Assembly: GCF_019721995.1 (NCBI RefSeq)
Contig: NZ_BLYC01000002.1
Span: forward strand, 186,001-250,000
DNA from: Bathymodiolus japonicus methanotrophic gill symbiont
GTDB lineage: Bacteria; Pseudomonadota; Gammaproteobacteria; Methylococcales; Methylomonadaceae
DNA: 64,000 nucleotides
Direction: 5' to 3'
Numbering within the stretch: position 1 is the stretch's first letter; every line of letters begins with the position of its first letter. The notes beneath the pieces were generated by a model that saw only the letters and a program-made list of their open reading frames with translations, made no database searches and was not told the origin of the DNA. Below are positions 5,185 through 64,000 of this stretch, piece after piece. The translations under genes and the position numbers were made by a program.

Positions 5185-5880
5185 ACTCGATGTTCAAGTT
5201 TTTCCATCCCACTGCCATCAAACTCTTACCTTCACCCAGCAGAACAATACTTTAATGATGCTGTTGGCCCTAAGCGCCCTAAATCTCTGCCAATCATATG
5301 TTTTCCTGATGCATCAGTTGAAACACATCCTTTATTAATTCACCTAACTCTTTCAGCTTATCACCAGGATCTGGAAACTCTAGCAATGACGTGATGAACT
5401 CAAGCAGTACATCCATTTGAGACTTGCGCTCGCTGTCAGCCCCGGACGGGCTGATAGTCTCCAGAAGGCGCAGGGAAATTTGCCAATCCGAAGTGCGCGA
5501 TAGCGCGCGAGGGAGGCTAAAATTTTATCCCGAATAGCCGTAGAGCCATTTGAGGTAGCCATGACTGAGCTGCTTTGTGCTCAGTCTGTGGCGGACGCAG
5601 GGCGGCTGGAGCATCTCCTATTCGCTGCGTAGGTGAACGAATTACGGCGACAGGAGTCCCGGAATTTCGTGAGGTAGCATGGCGCGCCTGTCTTTTTTTG
5701 CTATACCGCTCTTTTTCAACCGTTTATCTTCTTTATCCCACTGCTTTAAGGCTGGATCCGGCATATAAAAGAAAAAACCGACAGGCACTGTAATGGATGA
5801 GGTAACTAGCAGCAATAATACTATCGTTTGTCCATTAACATACCCGCCGGAGCCTTTGTGTTTCTGCTTGTAAACCTTAT
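5185..5880 (-). mobile_element. IS-A fragment (IS4-like), minus orientation, carrying element C1
   Basis: Starts with the IS-A terminal repeat ACTCGATGTTCAAGTTTT and continues with the 3' end of its transposase read backwards. Element C1 (5431-5690) sits inside, and on its far side the IS-A sequence resumes several hundred bases further on, so the middle of the transposase is deleted. The fragment ends head-to-head against a second IS-A copy at 5881. Confidence 0.85.
5431..5690 (+). repeat. Element C1 (260 bp)
   Basis: Starts CGCTGTCAGCCCC and ends GGCGCGCCTG. Left flank CGCT (C at -4). Its two flanks are non-contiguous in intact IS-A, consistent with recombination between two C elements inside one IS-A. 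The inferred second target, CCGA before TCTTTTT, also has C at -4. Confidence 0.9.
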
Positions 5881-7043
5881 ACTCGATGTTCAAGTTTTTG
5901 ATATTGAGAAGGTAAAATCAGGTATTCTGAGGTTGTTGTAATTTTATCGGTGTAAGCCCATGTTAATGAATGCCCCAGCCACCTTTATCCAAAGCTATAT
6001 TGACGATTTAAATGATGCGCTCAATCAGCTAAAACCCGGAGCGGCTTTGACACGGATTCAAGCCGCTTGGTTGGGCGCTTGTTTAACGTGCATACTGCTA
6101 ATGAACTCTGTTTGCTGGGCTAAGTTTGAGCGAGCAAGCCTTGGAGATTGCAAAGTAGCCGCATTATCCTAGCAAGTATACCCTGGGACTGGTTGCTACG
6201 GGTGAGTGTGGTCTTAATTTTAAAACGTTATGGCATTACTGAAGGTGTGTTGGCCTTTGATGAATCAGACCGAGCACGATCTAAGTCTACAAAACGTATT
6301 TATAAGGTTTACAAGCAGAAACACAAAGGCTCCGGCGGGTATGTTAATGGACAAACGATAGTATTATTGCTGCTAGTTACCTCATCCATTACAGTGCCTG
6401 TCGGTTTTTTCTTTTATATGCCGGATCCAGCCTTAAAGCAGTGGGATAAAGAAGATAAACGGTTGAAAAAGAGCGGTATAGCAAAAAAAGATCGGCCTAT
6501 TAAGCCTGAACGTGACAGTGCCTACCCAACCAAAACAAAGATTGCATTAGGCTTATTAAAAGAGTTTAAAGTTGCGCATAGCCTGATTAAAATTAAAGGC
6601 GTACTGGCTGATGCGCTGTATGGTGAAAAAGCCTTTATGGACGAAGCCGCTAAAGAATCTGGAGGCTCGCAGGTGATTAGCCAATTACGTAAAAACCAAA
6701 ATATTGAATATAGAGGTAGAATAAGGTCAGTCGAGAGCTACTTTAATTCGATTAACAAAGGCATTGATCAGACTGCGTATACCGTAGGAAGCTTACAGCG
6801 CAAGTCTCAAATGGATGTACTGCTTGAGTTCATCACGTCATTGCTAGAGTTTCCAGATCCTGGTGATAAGCTGAAAGAGTTAGGTGAATTAATAAAGGAT
6901 GTGTTTCAACTGATGCCATCAGGAAAACATATGATTGGCAGAGATTTAGGGCGCTTAGGGCCAACAGCATCATTAAAGTATTGTTCTGCTGGGTGAAGGT
7001 AAGAGTTTGATGGCAATGGGATGGAAAAACTTGAACATCGAGT
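5881..7043 (+). mobile_element. IS-A copy with internally deleted transposase
   Basis: Bounded by ACTCGATGTTCAAG and CTTGAACATCGAGT. The transposase starts at the ATG at 5960 (MLMNAPATFIQSYIDDLNDA) but lacks 14 bp near 6170, breaking the frame, and about 400 bp near 6772 that included the Y-R-E-K catalytic segment. The remaining frame 6148-6996 encodes the middle and end of the protein. The same 14-bp deletion occurs in the copy ending at 23044, so the two are related. This copy is not functional. Confidence 0.88.
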
Positions 7044-8974: not shown

Positions 8975-9568
8975 TATCTAATGCCTTTTTCCGTTTCCCT
9001 GCGGTTTTTGGTGCGCGGGACTTTCGCTGTCAGCCCCGGACGGGCTGATAGTCTCCAGAAGGCGCAGGGAAATTTGCCAATCCGAAGTGCGCGATAGCGC
9101 GCGAGGGAGGCTAAAATTTTATCCCGAATAGCCGTAGAGCCATTTGTGGTAGCCATGACTGAGCTGCTTTGTGCTCAGTCTGTGGCGGACGCAGGGCGGC
9201 TGGAGCATCTCCTATTCGCTGCGTAGGTGAACGAATTACGGCGACAGGAGTCCCGGAATTTCGTGAGGTAGCATGGCGCGCCTGTCTAATATTTGGCCTT
9301 CATCATCATGATCTGGATCGGCGATAAGGTTCATATCGTCTAATAACCCCAAAACCCATAAAGCCCCCATATAGGTGGCGATAGCAGTGGAGGGTTTGCC
9401 CTTTTCAATATCTGACATGACATAGCGCGAAACACCAATGCGCCCTGCCATATCTTCTAATCGCAACTTGCGGCGCAATCTTGCGGTACGGATATTTTTC
9501 CCTAACTGGATTAGCGCCAGTTCTACGGCAGCGGGAGGGGCTTTCGCTATTTTGTTTGTGCGTGACAT
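8964..9568 (-). pseudogene. hipB: HipB-type antitoxin, split by element C2
   Basis: Helix-turn-helix antitoxin and autorepressor of hipBA. The N-terminal part (9568 to 9285) includes LGKNIRTARLRRKLRLEDMA and GRIGVSRYVMSDIEKG, a clear XRE-type HTH. Element C2 (9025-9284) then interrupts it. Removing exactly the 260 bp joins EGQIL to ESPRAPKTAGKRKKALDNDF and a stop, the typical basic HipB tail, giving 114 residues in frame. As it stands, translation runs about 15 codons into C2 and stops. C2 is antisense to hipB, so splicing from the hipB mRNA could not repair it. Confidence 0.88.
9025..9284 (+). repeat. Element C2 (260 bp) inside hipB
   Basis: Begins CGCTGTCAGCCCC, ends GGCGCGCCTG; left flank CTTT, C at -4; no target duplication. 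Oriented + while the host gene is on the minus strand. Internal hairpins include CAGCCC-CGGAC-GGGCTG and GACTGAGC-TGCTTTGT-GCTCAGTC. Confidence 0.93.
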
Positions 9569-12036: not shown

Positions 12037-13463
12037 TAGACTTTCAGAAAATTAATTTCCGAACAAACAAAAACGACAGAGGGGAAACTGGCTTATAATT
12101 TTCGTCCCAACACTAACGGAAACAGTCAGGAATGGTATCCCTCACTTTTTCAAAGTCAATTGTAGACCGACTAAAAAAAATATGGCGACAGCTCTCAAGC
12201 TAAGTAATATTTGTTTATATCGATTAACTCAAGCTCTACTCTGGTTCAGTGAATGCATGGGAATCAAAGAAATAGCACGCCTAATGGGAGTCTGTGAAAA
12301 AACCATTATAAATTGGCTGAAAACATTCATGCATAAAGGTGTCGGTTGGTTAATAGGGCAACACTATCAAGGACGTGGTCGGAAGTCAAAGTTAACTAAA
12401 GACCAGAAAAATAGATTGGTTGAGTTGATAAAGAAAGGCCCAGAAGACAATGGATTTCATTGTGGAATATGGAATACTGCGATGATTGCCGAGCTTATTT
12501 GGTTAAAATTTGAAGTTCGTTATAACTTGAACTATTTATCAAGCCTAATGAAAAAACTGGGCTTCAGTTATCAAAAAGCTCGTTTTGTGACTGATCGCCA
12601 AGAAGAAGAAAAGTACGAGCTTGAAAGAAGAACGTGGCTGGAAGAAACATTGCCTGCCATTATGGAAAAGGCGGTAGAAGAAAAGAGTGTCGTTTTATTC
12701 GGTGATGAGGTGTCATTTGCTATGTGGGGTTCATTGGCACGAACCTGGGCTCCAATAGGAGAGCAACCCACAGTGAAAACATCAGGGATTCGAAAAGGGT
12801 TGAAAATGTTTGGTACGATCGAACTCGAAGGAGGGAGTTTTCAATACCGAGAATCATTGGCTTATGAGATAAAACCAAAGTCACTTAGACTTTTAAAAGA
12901 AGCTGGGCTGCCTCAAGAATTTTTAGCTATTCTTAAAAGCTTAAAAAATGAGAAATATCCAACACAGAAGCTTTTTATGGAAGCGATATATTCTATTGCC
13001 GACAACGTCTTAATCGAGAGTTATAAGCCAATGATATTACAACACGCTGAAACATCTGGGCGTTTTAATGGTGAAAGCTATGTTGAGTTTTTAACACAAT
13101 TGCTGGCTTATTATAAAGGCAAGATTATTCTAATTGAAGATGGTGCCCCGTATCATGGAAGCGGTGTTATTAAGGAATTTAAGTTAGCTAATGTAGATCG
13201 TTTGACAGTAGAACGTCTCCCTGCGTTCTCGCCGGATTTTAATCCGATTGAGAAATTATGGAAAAATACGAAACGCGATTCGACTCATATGAAGTATTTT
13301 AAAACTTTTGAAGATCTTCATGATTCAGTTGTGCAAACTTTTAACACTTATATGCATGATGCCAGTAAAGTGATTTGTGTTATGCAAAAATTGCGGGAAG
13401 ATTTCGTTGTTACCGCCTAAGTTTAAGCGCTCCAAATTTGGAAATTATTTATCTGAGAAACTA
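12037..13463 (+). mobile_element. IS630-family element, complete
   Basis: Terminal repeats TAGACTTTCAGAAAATTAATTTCC-type on the left and its approximate complement on the right, flanked by TA duplications (12035-36 and 13464-65) as expected for IS630/Tc1. Inserted in codon 9-10 of hemN. Confidence 0.92.
12182..13420 (+). CDS. IS630-family transposase
   Basis: A single intact 412-aa frame. N-terminal helix-turn-helix (MGIKEIARLMGVCEKTIINW), then the winged-helix region. The DDE catalytic set is visible as VVLFGDEVSF, IILIEDGAPYHGS and SPDFNPIEKLW. No frameshift, so it may be active. It is one of the few undamaged transposases in the window. Confidence 0.95.
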   Translation: MATALKLSNICLYRLTQALLWFSECMGIKEIARLMGVCEKTIINWLKTFMHKGVGWLIGQHYQGRGRKSKLTKDQKNRLVELIKKGPEDNGFHCGIWNTAMIAELIWLKFEVRYNLNYLSSLMKKLGFSYQKARFVTDRQEEEKYELERRTWLEETLPAIMEKAVEEKSVVLFGDEVSFAMWGSLARTWAPIGEQPTVKTSGIRKGLKMFGTIELEGGSFQYRESLAYEIKPKSLRLLKEAGLPQEFLAILKSLKNEKYPTQKLFMEAIYSIADNVLIESYKPMILQHAETSGRFNGESYVEFLTQLLAYYKGKIILIEDGAPYHGSGVIKEFKLANVDRLTVERLPAFSPDFNPIEKLWKNTKRDSTHMKYFKTFEDLHDSVVQTFNTYMHDASKVICVMQKLREDFVVTA

Positions 13464-15493: not shown

Positions 15494-16576
15494 ATAATCA
15501 AATTTCAGACATTATTTTGGGGCAGTGCTTTTTTTGCGATCCTACGCTGAAAATCATGGAAACGGAGCTTAGCGAAGTGGTGATTTTTAGTCCCTGATAC
15601 TCGATGTTCAAGTTTTTGATATTGAGAAGGTAAAATCAGGTATTCTGAGGTTGTTGTAATTTTATCGGTGTAAGCCCATGTTAATGAATGCCCCAGCCAC
15701 CTTTATCCAAAGCTATATTGACGATTTAAATGATGCGCTCAATCAGCTAAAACCCGGAGCGGCTTTGACACGGATTCAAGCCGCTTGGTTGGGCGCTTGT
15801 TTAACGTGCATACTGCTAATGAACTCTGTTTGCTGGGCTAAGTTTGAGCGAGCAAGCCTTGGAGACTGCAAAGTAGCCGCATTATCCTGGGTGTTTCGTA
15901 AAGCAAGTATACCCTGGGACTGGTTGCTACGGGTGAGTGTGGTCTTAATTTTAAAACGTTATGGCATTACTGAAGGTGTGTTGGCCTTTGATGAATCAGA
16001 CCGAGCACGATCTAAGTCTACAAAACGTATTTATAAAGTTTACAAGCAGAAACACAAAGGCTCCGGCGGGTATGTTAATGGACAAACGATAGTATTATTG
16101 CTGCTAGTTACCTCATCCATTACAGTGCCTGTCGGTTTTTTCTTTTATATGCCGGATCCAGCCTTAAAGCAGTGGGATAAAGAAGATAAACGGTTGAAAA
16201 AGAGCGGTATAGCAAAAAAAGATCTGCCTATTAAGCCTGAACGTGACAGTGCCTACCCGACCAAAACAGAGATTGCATTAGGCTTATTAAAAGAGTTTAA
16301 AGTTGCGCATAGCCTGATTAAAATTAAAGGCGTACTGGCTGATGCGCTGTATGGTGAAAAGCCTTTATGGACGAAGCCGCTAAAGAATCTGGAGGCTCGC
16401 AGGTGATTAGCCAATTACGTAAAAACCAAAATATTGAATATAGAGGTAGAATAAGGTCAGTCGAGAGCTACTTTAATTCGATTAACAAAGGCATTGATCA
16501 GATAATACGTGTACGTGGCGGCAAAGAGATTAAAGTGACTGTCAGCAGTGCACGATTGAAGGTGAGTTCTCACAGT

Positions 16577-16871
16577 CGCTGAAAATCAGGGAAACGGAGC
16601 CTAAGCGAAGTGATGATTTTTAGTCCGCGATAGCCGTAGGGCCGTTGTTTTGTCGGAGTCTGAGCGTTAGCGAAGGTGGAGACAAAATAAAAGGCCATCC
16701 GACACGGCGTCAAGTCATTTGGAGCCTATGTTCCGACCCCTTGTTGGGTCGGGACGAGGTGACGAGGACGAATCGGGGCCGCCGGAGGCATAAGTGGTCG
16801 CGTTAAGTTTTTGCTGCTTGCTTGGGCTGGGATGCCCAAAACAAGCTTTCGCAAAAATAGCGACTCCCCGC
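16577..16871 (+). repeat. Element A1 (295 bp)
   Basis: Starts CGCTGAAAATCAGGG, ends CCCCG plus C; left flank CAGT (C at -4). About 23 bp of IS-A are missing on its right side. Confidence 0.92.
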
Positions 16872-17321
16872 CTTAAAATATGACGGTGAAAACGACTATC
16901 GCTATTTAGTGGCGACAGACCTGACTTGGCGCACACAAGATATTATTCAAGCCTATACGTTGAGATGGCTGATTGAGGTTTTCTTTGAGGACTGGAAGCT
17001 TTAATGAAGGATGGGGGCGTGAGGCCAAACAATTAGATGAAGAGGGATCAAACCGTGGCCTGATTCTGAGTCTTTTGTTTGACCATTGTCTTCTCCTTCA
17101 CCCAGAGCAAATAGCCCGCATTGAAAGCAAACTACCTGCGTATACCATATGAAGCTTACAGCGCAAGTCTCAAATGGATGTACTGCTTGAGTTCATCACG
17201 TCATTGCTAGAGTTTCCAGATCCTGGTGATAAGCTGAAAGAGTTAGGTGAATTAATAAAGGATGTGTTTCAACTGATGCCATCAGGAAAACATATGATTG
17301 GCAGAGATTTAGGGCGCTTAG

Positions 17322-17640
17322 CCCATCTTCGTCACTATTGATGATGTAGTTGTTATAAATCAATTGGTTGAAATTTTAAAAAGTAGCCAGTTGGCACTAC
17401 AGATTTTGTGTTTTTGTATAAAACGTTGGATTTTTTAGAGTATTTTTGTCGCATGTAAATTACACTCAAATAATGATGATTTTTTTGACAAAAGTCAATG
17501 AATTTATCGACAAAAATAATATAAATGGCACTACAAAACTTTCAAAAAAAACACCATTGATTTTAAAGAGAATTTTTCGACAAAAAATCGCTTAAACCGA
17601 TGAATCAATGGCTTAGAAAGATGAAAGTGACGAAGATGGG
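17322..17640 (+). repeat. MITE D1 (319 bp), derivative of the IS1634-family element
   Basis: Termini CCCATCTTCGTCACT and AGTGACGAAGATGGG, TTAG duplicated at both ends; the intact IS-A sequence has a single TTAG. Internal sequence TGTAGTGCC also occurs near the ends of the IS1634-family element at 55702-59647. Confidence 0.92.
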
Positions 17641-17771
17641 TTAGGGCCAACAGCATCATTAAAGTATTGTTCTACTGGGTGAAGGTAAGAGTTTGATGGC
17701 AATGGGATAGAAAAACTTGAACATCGAGTGACAGGAGTCCCAGAATGTTGTGAGGTAGCATGGCGCGCCTG

Positions 17772-20286: not shown

Positions 20287-20550
20287 CGCTAAAAATCAGG
20301 AAAACGGAACCTAAGCAAAGTGATGATTTTTAGTCCTTGGTTAGGCGATAAGGACATTCGCTGACCTGTAGTGAGCTAGGAAAGAGAAGAATTACATTCC
20401 GAAGCCGCCTAGCCATTGATGTAGTCTTTACAGAACAGTTTTTTTGCGGAGTTGAAACCAGAGTGCAGGGGTGTGAGCTAGGGTGTCTCCCATTCCCGCT
20501 GTGTAGGCGAATTAATTATGGCGACAGAAGAGAATCCAGGCATCTCAAGA
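20287..20550 (+). repeat. Diverged element-B relic (B')
   Basis: Follows the B order (CGCTAAAAATCAGG, GTGATGATTTTTAGTCC, AAGAATTACATTCCGAAGCCG, TGGCGACAGAAGAG) with many substitutions, and lacks the GGCGCGCCTG end. The base at -4 is T, unlike young copies. It looks like an old insertion. Confidence 0.7.
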
Positions 20551-20644
20551 ATTTATTTTAGTTATTCAGCTTTATAAGCTGTCTCAGCTTAAGTTGGTTG
20601 CCAAATAAGGTACTATATTTGAATGAAATTTAAAGGAAAATAAA

Positions 20645-21040
20645 ATGAAATTTTTAATTTTAGTTGCAACAATGATGCTATCAATCCATGCCAATGCAAG
20701 TAATACAGATGAGTTCTATACTGGTTGGATTGACCCCCCAGGGGATAAATGGTACTCATATAAATCCTCATGTGATTTTAGTAACATAAAATCAGTAACT
20801 GTGATGCATGCTGATTTTCCTTCGAGCATAACTAGTAAAGGTATAGAAGAAGCGCTAGAGGAATGTTCACTGTTAATAAAAGTGTATTACTGGGATACTT
20901 ACTACGATGAAACTGAAGATAAATATTTTTGGGATTATAAGAGTCCTAGAATTCTATGGTTGATAAAAAAGTCCTTAAATTATTTTGGGACGATCAAAAT
21001 CCTACCACCACTAAAAGAACCTTCTGACACGAATACTTAA
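20645..21040 (+). CDS. Small secreted protein of unknown family, copy 1
   Basis: A 131-aa protein with signal peptide MKFLILVATMMLSIHANA. The mature part is rich in Trp/Tyr (FYTGWIDPPGDKWYSYKS) with two Cys (SSCDF, EECSLLIKVYYWDTY). It aligns in outline with the N-terminal region of the DUF1566 protein at 19371, as a stand-alone version without the C-terminal domain. Preceded by AAAGGAAAATAAA. A near-identical copy lies at 24260. Confidence 0.7.
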   Translation: MKFLILVATMMLSIHANASNTDEFYTGWIDPPGDKWYSYKSSCDFSNIKSVTVMHADFPSSITSKGIEEALEECSLLIKVYYWDTYYDETEDKYFWDYKSPRILWLIKKSLNYFGTIKILPPLKEPSDTNT

Positions 21041-21067
21041 CTTTACCCGATTACCCATAGCCCTTAT

Positions 21068-21110
21068 CCTTCGCTAAAGCTCAGTTTTAGCTGATTTTTA
21101 GCGAAGGATG
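21068..21110. terminator. Inverted repeat after secreted-protein gene
   Basis: CCTTCGCTAAA...TTTAGCGAAGG, an 11-bp stem. No T tract follows, so terminator function is uncertain; the stem also resembles the first hairpin of A/B elements. Confidence 0.4.
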
Positions 21111-21114
21111 GAGG

Positions 21115-21263
21115 AAATAAATGGCTCTGTCGCAAAAGATATTGAAAACGCAGAGAGCCTAGGTTCTGTTGAGCTTTTGTTTTGAATTTAAGATTTGTTT
21201 CGGCTATTGGTTCTGTCGCATAGGTTATTGAAAACGCAGAAAACTTGGTCTTCAGACAGAACC
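21115..21263 (+). repeat. IS6-type end fragments
   Basis: Repeated pieces of the IS6 left terminus (GGTTCTGTCGCA and GCTCTGTCGCAAAAG) and of its subterminal GAAAACGCAGAAAAC sequence, in tandem. No coding part. Confidence 0.6.
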
Positions 21264-21320
21264 CTCGATTATGTTAACGGCAATTTAATGACGTTGACTT
21301 TTAGGGTTATTACTCACATT

Positions 21321-21615
21321 CGCTGAAAATCAGGGAAACGGAGCCTAAGCGAAGTGATGATTTTTAGTCCTCGATAGCCGTAGGGCCGTTATTTTGTCGG
21401 AGTCTGAGCGTTAGCGAAGGTGGAGACAAAATAAAAGGCCATCCGACACGGCGTCAAGTCATTTGGAGCCTATGTTCCGACCCCTTGTTGGGTCGGGACG
21501 AGGTGACGAGGACGAATCGGGGCCGCCGGAGGCATAAGTGGTCGCGTTAAGTTTTTGCTGCTTGCTTGGGCTGGGATGCCCAAAACAAGCTTTCGCAAAA
21601 ATAGCGACTCCCCGA
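21321..21615 (+). repeat. Element A2 (295 bp)
   Basis: CGCTGAAAATCAGGG to CCCCGA; left flank CATT. The right flank is IS-A sequence, the left flank is the 57-bp duplicated segment, so it probably arose by recombination between two A copies. The inferred IS-A target is CTTA, C at -4. Confidence 0.92.
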
Positions 21616-21632
21616 TTCTACTCTATATTCAT

Positions 21633-21927
21633 CGCTGAAAATCAGGGAAACGGAGCCTAAGCGAAGTGATGATTTTTAGTCCGCGATAGCCGTAGGGCCG
21701 TTGTTTTGTCGGAGTCTGAGCGTTAGCGAAGGTGGAGACAAAATAAAAGGCCATCCGACACGGCGTCAAGTCATTTGGAGCCTATGTTCCGACCCCTTGT
21801 TGGGTCGGGACGAGGTGACGAGGACGAATCGGGGCCGCCGGAGGCATAAGTGGTCGCGTTAAGTTTTTGCTGCTTGCTTGGGCTGGGATGCCCAAAACAA
21901 GCTTTCGCAAAAATAGCGACTCCCCGA
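21633..21927 (+). repeat. Element A3 (295 bp)
   Basis: Complete A element. Left flank TCAT, the only young copy without C at -4; the intact IS-A sequence reads CAAT here, so one A was lost. The right flank ATTTTGG continues IS-A. Confidence 0.92.
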
Positions 21928-22261
21928 ATTTTGGTTTTTACGTAATTGGCTAATCACCTGCGAGCCTCCAGATTCTTTAGCGGCTTCGTCCATAAAGGCT
22001 TTTTCACCATACAGCGCATCAGCCAGTACGCCTTTAATTTTAATCAGGCTATGCGCAACTTTAAACTCTTTTAATAAGCCTAATGCAATCTCTGTTTTGG
22101 TTGGGTAGGCACTGTCACGTTCAGGCTTAATAGGCCGATCTTTTTTTGCTATACCGCTCTTTTTCAACCGTTTATCTTCTTTATCCCACTGCTTTAAGGC
22201 TGGATCCGGCATATAAAAGAAAAAACCGACAGGCACTGTAATGGATGAGGTAACTAGCAGC

Positions 22262-22556
22262 CGCTGAAAATCAGGGAAACGGAGCCTAAGCGAAGTGATG
22301 ATTTTTAGTCCGCGATAGCCGTAGGGCCGTTGTTTTGTCGGAGTCTGAGCGTTAGCGAAGGTGGAGACAAAATAAAAGGCCATCCGACACGGCGTCAAGT
22401 CATTTGGAGCCTATGTTCCGACCCCTTGTTGGGTCGGGACGAGGTGACGAGGACGAATCGGGGCCGCCGGAGGCATAAGTGGTCGCGTTAAGTTTTTGCC
22501 GCTTGCTTGGGCTGGGATGCCCAAAACAAGCTTTCGCAAAAATAGCGACTCCCCGC
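22262..22556 (+). repeat. Element A4 (295 bp)
   Basis: Left flank CAGC; ends CCCCGC; removal rejoins AGCAGC with AATAATAC exactly as in the uninterrupted IS-A at 62500. No duplication. Confidence 0.94.
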
Positions 22557-23044
22557 AATAATACTATCGTTTGTCCATTAACATACCCGCCGGAGCCTTT
22601 GTGTTTCTGCTTGTAAACCTTATAAATACGTTTTGTAGACTTAGATCGTGCTCGGTCTGATTCATCAAAGGCCAACACACCTTCAGTAATGCCATAACGT
22701 TTTAAAATTAAGACCACACTCACCCGTAGCAACCAGTCCCAGGGTATACTTGCTAGGATAATGCGGCTACTTTGCAATCTCCAAGGCTTGCTCGCTCAAA
22801 CTTAGCCCAGCAAACAGAGTTCATTAGCAGTATGCACGTTAAACAAGTGCCCAACCAAGCGGCTTGAATCCGTGTCAAAGCGGCTCCGGGTTTTAGCTGA
22901 TTGAGCGCATCATTTAAATCGTCAATATAGCTTTGGATAAAGGTGGCTGGGGCATTCATTAACATGGGCTTACACCGATAAAATTACAACAACCTCAGAA
23001 TACCTGATTTTACCTTCTCAATATCAAAAACTTGAACATCGAGT

Positions 23045-23667
23045 AAAAGAAAATTCAATTGCGACTCTGGTTGAGTCTATCCCTTTTGACTCCCGCCATG
23101 AGATCAATACAGGGGTTGAAGCATACAGTGTGTACGAAAACAAGGGCATCAAATTTAACGTGGTGGATTACCGTGATCCAGAAACCGGAAAACTTCACCG
23201 GTTTGTGACAACCTTGCCAATGACTATTAACCCTGGAACCATTGCCATGCTGTATTTCAAGCGACGGACGATTGAAAAGACATTCAATAACACTAAAAGT
23301 AATTTCAAGGAAACTAAAGCTTGGTCTTCCAATACCCGCTCACTTGAAAATCAAATGCGCCTGACTGCAATGAGCTATAATTTAATGCGCGTGTTTGAAG
23401 ATATTTCAAAAACACAACAGCCAGAATTGATTCATCCATCGGATAAAAAATATAGCGAGGCTCTGGAGATTAGGCAGCAACAGGCCCAAAAACGAGATCG
23501 TTTTGTGAATCCATTATTTTTCCAGGCAAGAATATCTCGTATCAGCTCGTATACCATTCGAGCAGTTCAAAACGCAATAATAACAGGAATGTCTTTACAG
23601 TGCTTTATGAGCTCTCTTGTGGCGAGGTTAGTTTCACGGCCTCAATTGATAGGGGAACACTGATGAT
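23045..23667 (+). mobile_element. IS-B 3' fragment
   Basis: Contains the last third of the IS-B transposase (frame 23130-23663, YFKRRTIEKTFNNTKS, where W of the intact copy is R) and the IS-B terminus GGGGAACACTGATG. Joined directly to an IS-A end at 23044. The 5' part is missing. Confidence 0.88.
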
Positions 23668-23672
23668 AATTG

Positions 23673-23876
23673 CTGAAGTTTCCCAATTATTGAGTAGCTG
23701 AAATACACAATGCTGGTGTATCGAGGTTTATTTTAGGTGGTTTTGCCATGTTTATAGCAAACCCCTACTTAATTCCCCTTAGGCAATAGCATTTGAAACG
23801 AATGAAAAGACTATTTTTTTCATATAGTTGTAGCATAGTTTCAATTTTACCATAAATGATTATTGGGAAACTTCAG
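23673..23876 (+). repeat. MITE E, copy 5
   Basis: Standard E termini. No clean 8-bp duplication; it sits between the IS-B end and the second segmental duplicate, so later rearrangement is likely. Confidence 0.9.
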
Positions 23877-23904
23877 TTTAAGATGAGACACCTGTAAAAT
23901 TAAC

Positions 23905-24170
23905 CGCTAAAAATTAGGAAAACGGAACCTAAGCAAAGTGATGATTTTTAGTCCTTGGTTAGGCGATAAGGACATTCTCTGACCTGTAGTGAGCTAGGAA
24001 AGAGAAGAATTACATTCCGAAGCCGCCTAGCCATTGATCTAGTCTTTACAGAACAGTTTTTTTGCGGAGTTGAAACCAGAGTGCAGTGTTGAGCTAGGGT
24101 GTCTCCCATTCCCGCAGCGTAGGCGAATTAATTATGGCGACAGAAGAGAATTCAGGCATCTCAAGAATTA
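23905..24170 (+). repeat. Diverged element-B relic (B'), duplicate
   Basis: Second copy of the old B-like element, carried within the segmental duplication rather than independently inserted. Confidence 0.7.
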
Positions 24171-24259
24171 TTTTAGTTATTCAGCTTTATAAGCTGTCTC
24201 AGCTTAAGTTGGTTGCCAAATAAGGTACTATATTTGAATGAAATTTAAAGGAAAATAAA

Positions 24260-24655
24260 ATGAAATTTTTAATTTTAGTTGCAACAATGATACTATCAAT
24301 CCATGCCAATGCAAGTAATACAGATGAGTTCTATACTGGTTGGATTGACCCCCCAGGGGATAAATGGTACTCATATAAATCCTCATGTGATTTTAGTAAC
24401 ATCAAATCAGTAACTGTGGTGCATGCTGAGTTTCCTTGGAGCATAACTAGTAAAGGTATAAAAGAAGCGCTAGAGGAATGTTCACTGTTAATAAAAGTGT
24501 ATTACTGGGATACTTACTACGATAAAGCTGAAGATAAATATTTTTGGGATTATAAGAGTCCTAGAATTCTATGGTTGATAAAAAAGTCCTTAAATTATTT
24601 TGGGACGATCAGAATCCTACCACCACTAAAAGAACCTTCTGACACGAATACTTAA
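24260..24655 (+). CDS. Small secreted protein of unknown family, copy 2
   Basis: 131 aa, signal peptide MKFLILVATMILSIHANA, same layout as the 20645 gene. Differences are few (for example VVHAEFPWS for VMHADFPSS, DKAED for DETED), and the frame is open in both copies, so the duplication is recent or both are under some selection. Function unknown. Confidence 0.7.
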   Translation: MKFLILVATMILSIHANASNTDEFYTGWIDPPGDKWYSYKSSCDFSNIKSVTVVHAEFPWSITSKGIKEALEECSLLIKVYYWDTYYDKAEDKYFWDYKSPRILWLIKKSLNYFGTIRILPPLKEPSDTNT

Positions 24656-24704: not shown

Positions 24705-24848
24705 CGCTGAAAATCAGGGAAACGGAGCCTAAGCGAAGTGATGATTTTTAGTCCGCAGTAGGCGACAGGTAAATTTTCAGATTCGACGTGTGCGGCAGCA
24801 CGCAAGAGAAGCTAAAGTTTCATCCCGATAAGCCGTCAAGTCAGTGAG
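24705..24848 (+). repeat. Element B2, truncated, with A-type 5' end
   Basis: First 50 bases match A (CGCTGAAAATCAGGG, GTGATGATTTTTAGTCCGC); the following part is B-like (TAGGCGACAGG, TTCGACGTGTGC, CAGCACGC). Truncated where an IS256 fragment begins. Left flank CGAT, C at -4. Confidence 0.75.
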
Positions 24849-25001
24849 GATGGCTTTGCTGATGAGTTCTCTAGCTCCATTTCGTAAAAGCTCAGTTAGT
24901 ACATCAATGCTATTTTCTTCTGGTTGTTTTAGGAGAATGATATTATCATTATTAATGACGTGCTCCTTTGTTGTAAATTTATCTTGCAGGATAATTTGCA
25001 A
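24849..25001 (-). pseudogene. IS256-family transposase, N-terminal fragment
   Basis: The minus strand reads IILLKQPEENSIDVLTELLR then NGARELISKAI, which matches the start of IS256-type transposases (LTEILRxGARxLLxxAVExE). It stops at element B2; no catalytic part remains. Confidence 0.6.
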
Positions 25002-27403: not shown

Positions 27404-28698
27404 CATCAGTGTTCCCATTGAAAGAAGAAGTACCTAAACAAAGCAGCCTATGAACTACCTGAAGGTAGCACCACTCGAATATTCCCATCTTTTTGATTTT
27501 AATCACTTATAACAGCAAATAAACACTCTGTAGGCACCGTAAAAAAACAACAAATAATTTCAAATAAAGCTTGCAATTGCCGAAAAAATTTTTCTAAAAA
27601 TTTCCGTTTTAATCACCTCATAAACGGATATCACCCATGCTTAAAGACCTACCACTCTCTGAACATATTCACCAACACTGCAATGAAAGTATGGAACGTG
27701 CCCTGTTAGCAGAGCGTCATCCTTTGTGGGCTCGTTCATGCCCAGAGTTGAAGGATATATCGACTTTATTCGCCTTGGGTTATTACGCTGTATCAGTGTA
27801 GTCGATAGTGGTCGCCATTTCCTCCAAACCAATGAACAGATTTATGGCCAGCTGCTTCGACCCACTCAACGTATTTTAAATCACTGAAGTCGCATAGACG
27901 AACAAGTATGCTTGAGGCATTTGAACAGCAGAGCTATCATCTTCACGCTGAAACACTGCTATCGCAAGGCATTGATTATCTTAAAGCATTCCCAGAACTT
28001 GACGAATACACCATAGAAGCAGCGGATGGACATTTTATTGATCATGCCTGCCATACTGAAAAAAACAGCAAGGGGAAAGTTTATGCGGCCGGGGGGGATT
28101 TACGCGTTGAATCTCAGAAGTGGGTTGCTCAGATTTCTTTGTCTGGTGACAAACGGAACTCAGAGACATCAAGAAATACCTGTGTTACGAGATCATATTG
28201 AAAAGCAAAACAAGTGAAATAACAGCTCTCAGAAACATCTCTATGTCTACGATAAAGCCGTCACCGACTTTGTCTGGTGGGATCGGCAGAAACGACATGC
28301 TAACGCTGAAAATCCTGGAAACGGAGCTTTAGCGAAGTGAAGATTTTTAGTCCGCGATAGCCGTAGGGCCGTTGTTTTGTCGGAGTCTGAGCGTTAGCGA
28401 AGGTGGAGACAAAATAAAAGGCCATCCGACACGGCGTCAAGTCATTTGGAGCCTATGTTCCGACCCCTTGTTGGGTCGGGACGAGGTGACGAGGACGAAT
28501 CGGGGCCGCCGGAGGCATAAGTGGTCGCGTTAAGTTTTTGCTGCTTGCTTGGGCTGGGATGCCCAAAACAAGCTTTCGCAAAAATAGCGACTCCCCGAAA
28601 GAAAATTCAATTGCGACTCTGGTTGAGTCTATCCCTTTTGACTCCCGCCATGAGATCAATACAGGGGTTGAAGCATACAGTGTGTACGAAAACAAGGG
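27404..28698 (+). mobile_element. IS-B copy, frameshifted, carrying element A5, 3' end replaced by IS-C
   Basis: Left end CATCAGTGTTCCC. Transposase start at 27637 (MLKDLPLSEHIHQHCNESME). It has a 2-bp insertion at AAGGATATATCG, further changes near 27860, and an extra G in the G run near 28087. A5 splits it at 28304. At 28698 IS-B ends abruptly and IS-C sequence begins. Dead copy; the intact version is at 60146-61444. Confidence 0.88.
28304..28598 (+). repeat. Element A5 (295 bp)
   Basis: Variant opening CGCTGAAAATCCTGG, shared with A9; ends CCCCGA. Left flank CTAA, C at -4. About 20 bp of IS-B between two ATGCTAA repeats is missing next to it. Confidence 0.93.
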
Positions 28699-32811: not shown

Positions 32812-33091
32812 CGCTGAAAATCATGGAAACGTAGCTTAGCGAAGTGGTGATTTTTAGTCCCTGATAGGCGACAGGGCAATTCGCTGATTCGACGTGTGCT
32901 AGCAGCACGCGAGAGGAGCAAGAATTGCATTCCGAATAGCCGTCCAGCCAGTGAGGTAGTAATGACGAAGCGGCTTTTGTGCGTAGTCGTTGCGGACGCA
33001 GGGCGTTCAGGGCATCTCCCATCCGCTGCGTAGGTGAACGAATTATGGCGACAGGAGTCCCGGAATTTCGTGAGGTAGCATGGCGCGCCTG
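32812..33091 (+). repeat. Element B3 (280 bp)
   Basis: CGCTGAAAATCATGG to GGCGCGCCTG; left flank CTTC, C at -4. Removal rejoins GGTCTTC with AGGCATAACT, matching the IS6 3' fragment near 19256 (GGTCTTCAAGCATAACT on the opposite strand) with one substitution. Confidence 0.94.
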
Positions 33092-35056: not shown

Positions 35057-35351
35057 CGCTGAAAATCAGGGAAACGTAGCCTAAGCGAAGTGATGATTTT
35101 TAGTCTGCGATAGCCGTAGGGCCGTTGTTTTGTCGGAGTCTGAGCGTTAGCGAAGGTGGAGACAAAATAAAAGGCCATCCGACACGGCGTCAAGTCATTT
35201 GGAGCCTATGTTCCGACCCCTTGTTGGGTCGGGACGAGGTGACGAGGACGAATCGGGGCCGCCGGAGGCATAAGTGGTCGCGTTAAGTTTTTGCTGCTTG
35301 CTTGGGCTGGGATGCCCAAAACAAGCTTTCGCAAAAATAGCGACTCCCCGA
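35057..35351 (+). repeat. Element A6 (295 bp) in rpoS
   Basis: Left flank CTTT (C at -4), right flank ATTAACC; removal restores codons ACT TTA TTA ACC. No duplication. Confidence 0.95.
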
Positions 35352-35932
35352 ATTAACCGCAGAGCAAGAGAAGTTATACGGGATGCAGGTCGTGCAGGGC
35401 GATCAAAAAGCGCGGCAGATCATGATCGAGAGTAATTCGCGTCTAGTGGTAAAAATAGCCCTGCGCTATTTAAACCGAGGGTTGCCCTTGCTTGATTTGA
35501 TTGAAGAAGGGAGTCTGGGTTTAATTCGCGCAGTAGAAAAATTTGATCCTGAGCTGGGGTTTCGCTTCTCAACGTATGCTACCTGGTGGATACGACAAAC
35601 GATTGAACGTGCAGTGATGAATCAGACTTGTACTATAAGGCTGCCTATTCATGTGCTGAAGGAAATGAGCGTGTTTTTAAAGGCGCAGCGATATTTACTG
35701 CAGACTCAGGAAACCGAGCCTAGTACCGAAGATATAGCCAGATACCTGGATAAGCCAGTAAAGTTGGTGGAGAAAATGCTCAAGCTGAATGAGCGAGTGA
35801 CTTCGATGGATGCACCTAGTCCATTTGATTCGGAGAGAGCGCTGGTGGATTCAATTGCTGATAATGAGGCGATGACGTTGCTGGAGCAGATTCATGATGA
35901 GGGTGTTAAAGAAAATATTAAAACTTGGCTGT

Positions 35933-36215
35933 CGCTTAGAATCAGGGAAACGGGGCCTAAGCGGAGTGATGATTTTTAGTCCCTGGTAGGCGACAGGGCA
36001 ATTCGCTGATCCGAAGTGCGCTAGTAGCGCGCGAGGGAGGCAAGAATTGCATTCCGAATAGCCGTCCAGCCATTTGAGGTAGTCTTAACGGAGCAGGGTT
36101 TTGTGCGTAGTTGAGACGGACGCAGGGCGACCAGGGCATCTCCCATTCGCTGCGTAGGCGAATGAATGTTGGTGACAGGAGCCCCAGGATGTTGTGAGGT
36201 AGCATGGCGCGCCTG
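35933..36215 (+). repeat. Element B4 (283 bp) in rpoS
   Basis: Opening variant CGCTTAGAATCAGGG, end GGCGCGCCTG; left flank CTGT, right flank CAAAG; removal restores TGG CTG TCA AAG in frame. Confidence 0.94.
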
Positions 36216-38201: not shown

Positions 38202-38496
38202 CGCTGAAAATCAGGGAAACGGAGCCTAAGCGAAGTGATGATTTTTAGTCCGCGATAGCCGTAGGGCCGTTGTTTTGTCGGAGTCTGAGCGTTAGCGAAG
38301 GTGGAGACAAAATAAAAGGCCATCCGACACGGCGTCAAGTCATTTGGAGCCTATGTTCCGACCCCTTGTTGGGTCGGGACGAGGTGACGAGGACGAATCG
38401 GGGCCGCCGGAGGCATAAGTGGTCGCGTTAAGTTTTTGCTGCTTGCTTGGGCTGGGATGCCCAAAACAAGCTTTCGCAAAAATAGCGACTCCCCGA
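38202..38496 (+). repeat. Element A7 (295 bp) in IS30 transposase
   Basis: Left flank CTTT, right flank AGGCTTG; exact removal restores codons AAG CCT AAA GAG on the minus strand. Antisense to the host gene. Confidence 0.94.
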
Positions 38497-38944
38497 AGGC
38501 TTGTTTTTGTGTCGTTCTTGGGCAAAATCTTCTGCTTGTTTATGTCTGTAGCCTCTTTGACCTGTATTGCGTTTAATCTCGCGTGAAATATTGCTTTGGC
38601 TTCGTTCTAAGGCTTCTGCTATTTTATTCTGTGAAGTTCCCTTTTCTAATTCAATTTCTATATAATATCTTTCTTCAGGACATAGGTGTGTATAGCTCAT
38701 TTGTAGCCTCTGTAAATTGTTTGGTAGCTGTTTACTTTACACCTATGTCTTGTCTTAATTCAACAGGTGTTAGTCTAGCCAATACTTGCAGAGGGTTATG
38801 CACTTATTTATACGAATTCAGGTTATTTAACATACTAGTTTTAAATATTTATCGATATTTCCATTACGGTGCTGTACTAGCTGATTGGCTTGCATAAGAA
38901 TTCAATTGACAGAAGGTGTTGATACCGGCTATTATTGCATAGAT

Positions 38945-39687: not shown

Positions 39688-39933
39688 CGCTTAAAATCAG
39701 GGAAACGGAGCCTAAGCGGAGTGATGATTTTTAGTCCCTGGTAGGCGACAGGGAAATTCGCTGATCCGAAGTGCGCTAGTAGCGCGCGAGGGAGGCAAGA
39801 ATTGCATTCCGAATAGCCGTCCAGCCATTTGAGACGGACGCAGGGCGACCAGGGCATCTCCCATTCGCTGCGTAGGCGAATGAATGTTGGTGACAGGAGT
39901 CCCAGAATGTTGTGAGGTAGCATGGCGCGCCTG
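39688..39933 (+). repeat. Element B5 (246 bp, internal deletion)
   Basis: Opening CGCTTAAAATCAGGG, end GGCGCGCCTG; left flank CTTA, C at -4. About 35 bp of the B centre is missing (after CCAGCCATTTGAG). Lies between rpmF and its terminator. Confidence 0.92.
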
Positions 39934-49313: not shown

Positions 49314-49945
49314 ATGGCAGAATCATCCGCACGGCAGGGAATTTTATCCTTGTCCATCAAAGAAAAGCATGCTCTCTATACCGCTTATATGCCCTTTGTT
49401 GAAAACGGGGGGCTATCGCTGAAAATCATGGAAACGTAGCTTAGCGAAGTGGTGATTTTTAGTCCCTGATAGGCGACAGGGCAATTCGCTGATTCGACGT
49501 GTGCTAGCAGCACGCGAGAGGAGCAAGAATTGCATTCCGAATAGCCGTCCAGCCAGTGAGGTAGTAATGACGAAGCGGCTTTTGTGCGTAGTCGTTGCGG
49601 ACGCAGGGCGTTCAGGGCATCTCCCATCCGCTGCGTAGGTGAACGAATTATGGCGACAGGAGTCCCGGAATTTCGTGAGGTAGCATGGCGCGCCTGTTAT
49701 TCCAACAAACCGCGCTTATAAAATGGGACAAGAAGTGTTTATGTTGCTCAATTTAATGGAAGAGACTGAGCGCATCCCTGTCGCCGGCCAAGGCGATCTG
49801 GCTGACACCCTCTGGCGCGCAAGGCTATCGAACGGCAGGAATAGGCGTGCAGTTTAGTGATCAGGACGGAGGGCTGGCGAGAAGTAAAATCGAAACCTGC
49901 CTCGCAGGTTCTTTGGAGTCAGAGCGCTCTACGCATACTATGTAG
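49314..49945 (+). pseudogene. pilZ: PilZ-domain type IV pilus protein, split by B6 and frameshifted
   Basis: The short pilus-assembly PilZ protein usually found after holB. The N-terminal part reads MAESSARQGILSLSIKEKHA then LYTAYMPFVENGGL. Exact removal of B6 (49417-49696) continues FIPTNRAYKMGQEVFMLLNL in frame. A one-base insertion at GCCGGCCAAGG (near 49785) shifts the remaining IWLTPSGAQGYRTAGIGVQF and FSDQDGGLARSKIETCL. Two independent lesions, so it is a true pseudogene. Confidence 0.9.
49417..49696 (+). repeat. Element B6 (280 bp) in pilZ
   Basis: CGCTGAAAATCATGG to GGCGCGCCTG; left flank CTAT (C at -4), right flank TTATTCC; exact removal restores the frame. Almost identical to B3 and B7. 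Confidence 0.95.
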
Positions 49946-57585: not shown

Positions 57586-57845
57586 CGCTGTCAGCCCCGG
57601 ACGGGCTGATAGTCTCCAGAAGGCGCAGGGAAATTTGCCAATCCGAAGTGCGCGATAGCGCGCGAGGGAGGCTAAGATTTTATCCCGAATAGCCGTAGAG
57701 CCATTTGTGGTAGCCATGACTGAGCTGCTTTGTGCTCAGTCTGTGGCGGACGCAGGGCGGCTGGAGCATCTCCTATTCGCTGCGTAGGTGAACGAATTAC
57801 GGCGACAGGAGTCCCGGAATTTCGTGAGGTAGCATGGCGCGCCTG
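57586..57845 (+). repeat. Element C3 (260 bp)
   Basis: Left flank CCAC, right flank CTTTATCC; removal restores the IS-A sequence exactly. No duplication. Confidence 0.94.
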
Positions 57846-58045: not shown

Positions 58046-58305
58046 CGCTGTCAGCCCCGGACGGGCTGATAGTCTCCAGAAGGCGCAGGGAAATTTGCCA
58101 ATCCGAAGTGCGCGATAGCGCGCGAGGGAGGCTAAAATTTTATCCCGAATAGCCGTAGAGCCATTTGTGGTAGCCATGACTGAGCTGCTTTGTGCTCAGT
58201 CTGTGGCGGACGCAGGGCGGCTGGAGCATCTCCTATTCGCTGCGTAGGTGAACGAATTACGGCGACAGGAGTCCCGGAATTTCGTGAGGTAGCATGGCGC
58301 GCCTG
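58046..58305 (+). repeat. Element C4 (260 bp)
   Basis: Left flank CGTA; the right flank TTACGTAAAA is about 500 bp further on in intact IS-A, where it is preceded by CCAA (C at -4). Fits recombination between two C insertions. Confidence 0.93.
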
Positions 58306-58553
58306 TTACGTAAAAACCAAAATATTGAATATAGAGGTAGAATAAGGTCAGTCGAGAGCTACTTTAATTCGATTAACAAAGGCATTGATCAGATAATACG
58401 TGTACGTGGCGGCAAAGAGATTAAAGTGACTGTCAGCAGTGCACGATTAAAGGTGAGTTCTCACAGTAAAAAGCGCTTTGTCATTGCCTTAAAATATGAC
58501 GGTGAAAACGACTATCGCTATTTAGTGGCGACAGACCTGACTTGGCGCACACA

Positions 58554-58847
58554 CGCTGAAAATCAGGGAAACGGAGCCTAAGCGAAGTGATGATTTTTAG
58601 TCCGCGATAGCCGTAGGGCCGTTATTTTGTCGGAGTCTGAGCGTTAGCGAAGGTGGAGACAAAATAAAAGGCCATCCGACACGGCGTCAAGTCATTTGGA
58701 GCCTATGTTCCGACCCCTTGTTGGGTCGGGACGAGGTGACGAGGACGAATCGGGGCCGCCGGAGGCATAAGTGGTCGCGTTAAGTTTTTGCTGCTTGCTT
58801 GGGCTGGGATGCCCAAAACAAGCTTTCGCAAAAATAGCGACTCCCCA
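58554..58847 (+). repeat. Element A8 (294 bp)
   Basis: Left flank CACA, right flank AGATATT; ends CCCCA (one G fewer than other copies). Removal restores intact IS-A. Confidence 0.93.
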
Positions 58848-59702
58848 AGATATTATTCAAGCCTATACGTTGAGATGGCTGATTGAGGTTTTCTTTGAGG
58901 GCTGGAAGCTTTATGAAGGATGGGGGCGTGAGGCCAAACAATTAGATGAAGAGGGATCAAGCCGTGGCCTGATTCTGAGTCTTTTGTTTGACCATTGCCT
59001 TCTCCTTCACCCAGAGCAAATAGCCCGCATTGAAAGCAAACTACCTGCGTATACCGTAGGAAGCTTACAGCGCAAGTCTCAAGTGGATGTACTGCTTGAG
59101 TTCATCACGTCATTGCTAGAGTTTCCAGATCCTGGTGATAAGCTGAAAGAGTTAGGTGAATTAATAAAGGATGTGTTTCAGCTGATGCCATCAGGAAAAC
59201 ATATGATTGGCAGAGATTTAGGGCGCTTAGAGCCAACACCATCATTAAAGTATTGTTCTGCTGGGTGAAGGTAAGAGTTTGATGGCAATGGGATGGAAAA
59301 ACTTGAACATCGAGTATTAGCTTACCACCTGGTACATGTACTGCGTTATCAACTTAGATTGCAGGGCATCCATCTAAGCTGGGAAAGCATTCGCAACAGG
59401 ATGTCGACCCAGCAACGCATGACCATTACTTTACCCACGGATAACGATACAATCATTCACCTGCGAACCACAAGCAAAGCAGAAACCAGACAAAAACAAA
59501 TATACACTGCGTTGAATATTAACCCCGACCCGATTGGAAAAGTTAAAACGATCGTTGATATGAAACCTGTAGTGCCAACTGGGGCCGATTGAAAAATTTA
59601 ACTCATTGAAATAATGGGGAATTGACTGTATATGTCACGAAGATAGGCTAAACAAAGCAGCCTATAACCTACCTGAAGGTAGCACCACTCGAATATTTCC
59701 AT

Positions 59703-59997
59703 CGCTGAAAATCCTGGAAACGGAGCTTTAGCGAAGTGAAGATTTTTAGTCCGCGATAGCCGTAGGGCCGTTGTTTTGTCGGAGTCTGAGCGTTAGCGAA
59801 GGTGGAGACAAAATAAAAGGCCATCCGACACGGCGTCAAGTCATTTGGAGCCTATGTTCCGACCCCTTGTTGGGTCGGGACGAGGTGACGAGGACGAATC
59901 GGGGCCGCCGGAGGCATAAGTGGTCGCGTTAAGTTTTTGCTGCTTGCTTGGGCTGGGATGCCCAAAACAAGCTTTCGCAAAAATAGCGACTCCCCGA
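59703..59997 (+). repeat. Element A9 (295 bp)
   Basis: Variant opening CGCTGAAAATCCTGG; left flank CCAT, right flank CTTTTTG; removal matches the other IS-B copy near 27490 exactly. Confidence 0.94.
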
Positions 59998-60145
59998 CTT
60001 TTTGATTTTAATCACTTATAACAGCAAATAGACACTCTGTAGGCACCGTAAAAAAACAACAAATAATTTCAAATAAAGCTTGCAATTGCCGAAAAAAATT
60101 TTCTAAAAATTTCCGTTTTAATCACCTCATAAACGGATATCACCC

Positions 60146-61444: not shown

Positions 61445-61523
61445 TGATCTTTAGACACTAATATGACGTGCGTATCACTCGATGTTCAAGTTTTTCCATC
61501 CCATTGCCATCAAACTCTTACCT

Positions 61524-63253: not shown

Positions 63254-63310
63254 GGGCTTACACCGATAAAATTACAACAACCTCAGAATACCTGATTTTA
63301 CCTTCTCAAT

Positions 63311-63605
63311 CGCTGAAAATCAGGGAAACGGAGCTTTAGCGAAGTGAAGATTTTTAGTCCGCGATAGCCGTAGGGCCGTTGTTTTGTCGGAGTCTGAGCG
63401 TTAGCGAAGGTGGAGACAAAATAAAAGGCCATCCGACACGGCGTCAAGTCATTTGGAGCCTATGTTCCGACCCCTTGTTGGGTCGGGACGAGGTGACGAG
63501 GACGAATCGGGGCCGCCGGAGGCATAAGTGGTCGCGTTAAGTTTTTGCTGCTTGCTTGGGCTGGGATGCCCAAAACAAGCTTTCGCAAAAATAGCGACTC
63601 CCCGA
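63311..63605 (+). repeat. Element A10 (295 bp)
   Basis: Left flank CAAT, right flank ATCAAAAAC; removal restores the IS-A subterminal sequence exactly as at 23018. Confidence 0.94.
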
Positions 63606-63727
63606 ATCAAAAACTTGAACATCGAGTATCAGGAAATTGTTTCACTAAAGTGAGTACGATACTAAGAATCGAGTTATCTGCCAGGCTACCTGGCATAGAA
63701 TCAGGCAGGGCGGCAGTCATCTGCTGC

Positions 63728-64000
63728 CGCTGAAAATCATGGAAACGGAGCTTAGCGAAGTGGTGATTTTTAGTCCCTGATAGGCGACAGGGCAATTCGC
63801 TGATTCGACGTGTGCTAGCAGCACGCGAGAGGAGCAAGAATTGCATTCCGAATAGCCGTCCAGCCAGTGAGGTAGTAATGACGAAGCGGCTTTTGTGCGT
63901 AGTCGTTGCGGACGCAGGGCGTTCAGGGCATCTCCCATCCGCTGCGTAGGTGAACGAATTATGGCGACAGGAGTCCCAGAATTTCGTGAGGTAGCATGGC
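63728..64000 (+). repeat. Element B7, running to the window edge
   Basis: Begins CGCTGAAAATCATGG after CTGC (C at -4), inside the phoH PIN domain, and matches B3/B6 up to the last base; the final few bases lie outside. Confidence 0.93.

Follow-up and report, generated by a model that had tools for sequence, protein, structure and literature searches.

Composition of the elements in the window

The stretch of DNA analysed (the window) is 64,000 nt long and covers positions 186,001 to 250,000 of contig NZ_BLYC01000002.1 of a methanotrophic gill symbiont of Bathymodiolus japonicus, whose genome comprises 4.97 Mb in 109 contigs. BLAST searches within the window identified ten family A elements, three family B elements, two B variants, four family C elements, two diverged copies and one short copy, at 24705..24848. 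These are non-coding, and all 22 significant hits obtained in the window with a model of the core lie on the + strand. The families are built from three blocks: a left-end hairpin beginning CGCT, a folded core of about 160 nt, and a right end.

The family A elements (296 nt; alpha left end, core, and a right end finishing in GCGACTCCCC plus 2 nt) are found at 16577..16872, 21321..21616, 21633..21928, 22262..22557, 28304..28599, 35057..35352, 38202..38497, 58554..58847, 59703..59998 and 63311..63606, all on the + strand. Those at 22262..22557 and 58554..58847 lie inside copies of an insertion sequence (IS). Family B elements (280 nt; alpha left end, right end finishing in GGCGCGCCTG) are found at 32812..33091, 49417..49696 and 63728..64000 (all +), the last of which is cut by the end of the window. 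A B3 variant of 283 nt lies at 35933..36215 (+), and a B3-type copy with an internal deletion (246 nt) at 39688..39933 (+). Family C elements (260 nt; beta left end CTGTCAGCCC..GGGCTGATAG, B-type right end) are found at 5431..5690, 9025..9284, 57586..57845 and 58046..58305 (all +), of which 57586..57845 is inside an IS copy. The diverged, old B-like copies at 20287..20530 and 23905..24146 (both +) have the same flanks and thus represent one insertion that was later duplicated; the duplicated stretch, within 20287-24655, includes segments such as 20553-20852 and 24168-24467, which are 98% identical.

Many copies and fragments of one DDE-transposase IS with the ends CTCGATGTTCAAG (5876-7043, 15600-17728, 21929-23049, 58301-59315 and 61477-63310) are a major landing ground for the A, B and C elements. 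One of these copies has B ends on either side, at 15545..15599 (+) and 17728..17771 (+), and was therefore examined as a possible autonomous form. It proved to be an ordinary DDE IS (15600-17728) with its own inverted ends, inserted in a B-type element. A DDE_3 (IS630-like) transposase frame is also present at 12182-13420, downstream of a release-factor-3 gene and within a very repeat-rich stretch.

Exchange of end blocks

The preliminary description proposed that A, B and C are modular, with shared 5' and 3' blocks in different combinations and a constant CGCT start. This was tested by dividing each element into left end, core and right end and comparing the block identities with those of shuffled sequences (given in brackets). 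A and B were similar at the left end only (left end 0.91 [0.59], core 0.63 [0.62], right end 0.62 [0.65]), whereas B and C shared the core and right end but not the left hairpin (left end 0.67 [0.57], core 0.80 [0.57], right end 1.00 [0.56]; 45/45 in the right end). The modular pattern is real, and the elements are present as described and far exceed chance. The distinct 5' hairpin of C and the sequence AATCAGGGAAACGG in the copies at 35933 and 39688 were also confirmed. However, the block shared by A and B, described as the first 50 bp, comprises the first 46-50 nt and is about 91% identical rather than perfect.

A left-end motif scan of 864 kb of the genome (the window and further sampled loci) gave no new family other than a fourth, E, present as three copies (at L048:16833-17134 and in loci L061 and L063), which has a third left-hairpin type (gamma) and the right end of A (0.97). 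Four of the six possible pairings of left-end type with right-end type occur in this sample: alpha with the B/C end (62), beta with the B/C end (54), alpha with the A end (84) and gamma with the A end (3). The decisive case is a copy from a same-genus genome, L101, the left end of which is 0.97 identical to E and 0.77 to A (the latter figure includes about 10 shared nt downstream of the hairpin), while its core is 0.97 identical to A and 0.83 to E, and its body as a whole is 97-99% identical to that of A. The exchange point lies immediately after the left hairpin, in AGTCC. In addition, a genome of another order (G254) carries the right end of A (0.93) on a core that is only 0.66 like that of A.

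These observations support block exchange and, barring an assembly error in L101, are not explained by purely tree-like divergence. The copy at 24705..24848 (+), to which the preliminary description was attached, is the weakest example. It has an alpha left end and a B-like core truncated at the 3' side (core model hit at 24751-24865, 35.4 bits; target CGAT|CGCT). Its left end is 1.00 identical to A and 0.91 to B, and its core 0.64 to A [0.66] and 0.80 to B [0.67]. However, it belongs to an old B-like subfamily also seen in a mussel symbiont (core 97%, left end 96%), and so its A-like start may be plain common descent. The preliminary description also missed that the A and B/C cores are homologous in structure, although they cannot be aligned by plain identity, and that the elements are mobile with a defined target and strand bias.

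Copy number and exact insertion

In the 864 kb sampled, which is 17% of the genome, 264 copies were found (305 per Mb, 7.7% of the DNA); extrapolation to the whole genome gives about 1,500 copies if the remainder is alike. The lengths are uniform: C is 260 nt in 54/54 copies, B is 280 nt in 46 of the 62 copies that combine the alpha and B/C ends, and A is 293 nt as far as CCCC in 81/84. Forms with internal deletions (100 nt and 246 nt) were single copies in the sample, and so are in-place deletions rather than amplified minimal elements.

Of 202 testable insertions, 101 match an empty site elsewhere in the genome, often in another copy of the same IS. Within the window, the empty counterparts of the A elements at 22262..22557, 58554..58847 and 63311..63606 lie at 5774-5852, 16898-16977 and 15593-15660, respectively, and that of the C element at 57586..57845 lies at 5943-6023. 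Empty sites for the A elements at 38202..38497 and 59703..59998 and the B element at 32812..33091 were found in loci L073, L078 and L020, respectively. Fifty of 54 B, B3 and C sites aligned with no gap at the junction, and 39 of 47 A sites showed a constant 2-nt offset, which means that A ends two bases beyond CTCCCC with a variable dinucleotide. Insertion is therefore exact, with neither duplication nor loss of the target. Among the A copies of this genome the last two bases are GA (51), AA (18), GC (11) or GT (6), and the base after CCCCG is A in three quarters of the copies, whereas the B and C ends are fixed; this may reflect sub-families or imprecise right-end cleavage.

Target and strand preference

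The base four positions upstream of the insertion is C in 227 of 233 sites (identical flanks having been collapsed for this count), and the other positions are only weakly biased. The last four bases of the elements themselves are CCTG (B, C) or CCGA, CCAA or CCGC (A), and so also conform to C-N-N-N.

The strand of the element that starts with CGCT lies on the G-rich strand in 196 of 264 copies (196 vs 68; p=1.5e-15), with GC skew taken per 20-kb stretch, or over the whole window for copies in the window. It was possible to separate the influence of replication from that of the target by examining 57 insertions into one IS present in both orientations. Of these, 45 followed the replication strand (p=1.3e-5) and 26 followed the orientation of the IS, while the IS itself was unbiased (39:39). 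A transcription- or target-driven bias would follow the IS. These observations indicate a preference for the lagging-strand template, although the G-rich strand is taken as leading by convention, which is an inference, and copies inside duplicated segments are not fully independent.

Conserved predicted fold of the core

A consensus fold of 21 A-type elements from relatives (RNAalifold; alignment A1) gave 76 pairs, 19 of them with double compensation. The left hairpin pairs columns 2-13 with 37-48 and the right-end hairpin pairs columns 228-233 with 296-301. A cross-family alignment of 26 cores from A, B, C, E and relatives retained a closing helix (A CGAT/ATCG, B CTGA/TCAG, C CCAG/CTGG) and an inner helix (GCCG/CGGC, GGCG/CGCC, GCGA/TCGC) whose sequences change in step. 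Eighteen named pairs were 93.9% paired, with a covariation score of 0.512, compared with 0.07 or less when the pairs were slid and 0/500 shuffles. As a single sequence, B does not fold more stably than its shuffles, whereas C does (z -3.9); the structural claim rests on covariation. Varying pairs tolerated G-U and not A-C (24 vs 2 in alignment A3; 161 vs 14 for the variable pairs of A1), and so the CGCT strand is the one that folds, although this does not discriminate between RNA and single-stranded DNA.

Distribution

The nearest named matches are from methanotrophs: a full-length B-type element (90% identity) in a Methyloprofundus plasmid, and exact-pattern matches in the Bathymodiolus platifrons methanotrophic gill symbiont. 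A-type DNA matches occur in 68 of 151 genomes of the order (23 of 44 genera), whereas full B-type elements are nearly confined to the genus. The core model found the family in 38 of 369 Gammaproteobacteria genomes (37 of 368 excluding this genome), in 30 genera and often in multiple copies, and in plasmids of Legionella antarctica. A phylum-wide search of 398 genomes, a sample of unknown composition, found only this genome. In distant copies (six loci, L241, L242, L246, L249, L250 and L251, together with G254 and Legionella), the CGCT start, the hairpin cap, AGTCC and an upstream C at -4 were seen to recur by eye. No Rfam family matched the elements at gathering or relaxed thresholds, and no paper describing them was found in a search limited to open-licence papers. 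The number of copies and of matched empty sites makes the family a natural experiment on single-strand transposition at replication forks, in which target rule, strand choice and end exchange can be read off directly.

Probable mechanism of mobility

The favoured explanation for these observations, with moderate confidence, is that A, B, C and E are families of one superfamily of non-autonomous, single-strand (‘peel and paste’ type) transposable elements of 260-302 nt. Exact insertion without duplication, subterminal hairpins, a target of tetranucleotide length, an equivalent tetranucleotide at the element's own end and preference for the lagging-strand template are the signature of IS200/IS605-type HUH transposition (PMC6006769), and elements with these traits but without a gene are known as PATEs (PMC3119063). 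It is inferred that a HUH tyrosine transposase acting in trans (IS200/IS605 TnpA-like or REP-associated) recognizes the hairpins on single-stranded DNA at replication forks, cuts after CNNN at both ends, and pastes the excised strand into another CNNN. It is likewise inferred that crossovers between co-resident families, in the short conserved stretches next to the left hairpin (CGCT, AGTCC) and before the right hairpin, swapped the ends and made the observed combinations. CGCT is invariant while the stem below it varies, which makes it a candidate guide sequence, albeit only as a guess.

The enzyme itself was not identified. No autonomous copy carrying a transposase between these ends was found in the 864 kb read, and none of the Y1_Tnp loci examined in this genome or its relatives had matching ends. 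The Y1 matches in this genome are mostly fragments. The only full-length gene seen, L017 (G000:C5:59189-62518; 225 aa), is RAYT-like (65 bits, below the NCBIfam cut-off of 80), with no element within 1.5 kb. One draft genome with element copies (G548) has no Y1_Tnp hit. An IS91 transposase beside a Legionella copy is a chance adjacency, as a second copy lies elsewhere, and a TnpB beside a Methylobacter copy is similarly not supported as a partner. It also weighs against this explanation that a target with one fixed base is far looser than the 4-5 nt targets described for IS200/IS605, and that IS200/IS605 and PATE mobility needs only end hairpins, which leaves the conserved core unexplained.

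Alternative explanations were considered less likely. The elements might move through their RNA, with the folded transcript inserted or copied into the lagging-strand template at forks by a reverse transcriptase acting in trans, as bacterial SINE-like or ribozyme-like elements. The long covarying fold, its G-U tolerance on the sense strand, the lack of target duplication and the replication-strand bias (traits of insertion that group II introns may share) are compatible with this, and the genome has five RVT_1 matches, four of them in open frames of 337-648 aa. An RNA route is therefore not excluded, but it appears unlikely: the elements match no group II intron or other catalytic RNA, they lack the oligo-A or 3' length variation expected of copied RNA, both ends are exact at the base, and the C-N3 rule at both the target and the element's own end suits DNA cleavage at both ends. 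A double-stranded circle moved by a site-specific recombinase or bridge-RNA transposase (IS110-type, tyrosine or serine recombinase) may also insert without target duplication, but is very improbable, as such enzymes need target matches longer than one base and would not be expected to give a replication-strand bias of this kind, and no core dinucleotide is shared by the two junctions.

A special case of the favoured explanation, as to the enzyme, is that the elements are the REP-like repeats of a resident REP-associated tyrosine transposase (RAYT) such as L017, i.e., an oversized REPtron. L017 has HVH and a tyrosine in STIRYVE visible in its translation, and RAYT-type genes occur in nearly all element-bearing genomes checked. 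However, L017 is flanked by its own short palindromes (AAAGGGTAGCGTCCCCTTT) and not by A, B, C or E ends, an element with the right end of A interrupts a RAYT gene in G254, and G548 has no Y1 hit; L017 is a possible but unproved driver. Divergence along a tree without exchange, with left hairpins changing quickly and right ends held by selection, is highly unlikely given L101, as the bodies of E and A differ by about 18%, and given the right end shared with G254. A more speculative possibility, considered improbable at present, is that the elements are a widespread, undescribed class of gammaproteobacterial mobile elements whose folded RNA core takes part in their own mobility, i.e., a transposable structured RNA with exchangeable end hairpins that needs only a host, RAYT or reverse-transcriptase enzyme in trans.

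Comparison with known systems

The elements resemble the PATEs (palindrome-associated transposable elements) of Haloquadratum and Halanaerobium in lacking terminal inverted repeats (the ends CGCT and CCTG or CCCCGA are not complementary), and in their near-terminal palindromes, absence of target duplication, lack of coding capacity and frequent insertion into other mobile elements (PMC3119063; PMC7290912). They differ in that no matching IS605 parent was found in the part of the genome read or the relatives' loci examined, and in their core of about 160 nt with a conserved multi-branched predicted fold, a target reduced to C-N3, a copy number several times higher and a gammaproteobacterial host. 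With the IS200/IS605 family (IS608, ISDra2) they share exact insertion, a final tetranucleotide at the right end, subterminal hairpins and the lagging-strand template preference (PMC6006769), but they contain no tnpA or tnpB, it is undecided whether insertion 3' of a specific tetranucleotide is shared, as only one of the four target bases is fixed, and a large structured core lies between the hairpins. The lack of terminal inverted repeats and target duplication is inconsistent with a MITE of a DDE transposase, and the lack of an Rfam match and the CGCT start, in place of GUGYG, are inconsistent with a group II intron.

REP/BIME/REPIN elements with TnpA_REP (RAYT) are also high-copy non-coding repeats that fold as single strands and are thought to be mobilized in trans by a Y1 HUH enzyme, but REPs are short, with a GTAG-type motif and cleavage at CT or CA (PMC8266576), whereas the elements described here are 260-302 nt, start with CGCT and follow C-N3. 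HEARO and IsrB-IscB omega-RNA elements may similarly be structured, RNA-like elements of about 300 nt in mobile contexts; however, the elements had no Rfam match even at a relaxed threshold, no RRXRR protein was found in this genome, and no element lay beside the RRXRR-protein loci fetched from relatives. Most of the hits in the Methylomonas group were short proteins (about 90-130 aa, one to four per genome) with only the N-terminal RRXRR/PLMP stretch (e.g., VQAADGKPINPCHPARARELLRKKR), of unclear function. The BOX elements of Streptococcus pneumoniae appear likewise to be modular repeats, with end and middle modules in different combinations, but they are unrelated in sequence and host, and in the present elements the end modules are exchanged around a covarying core.
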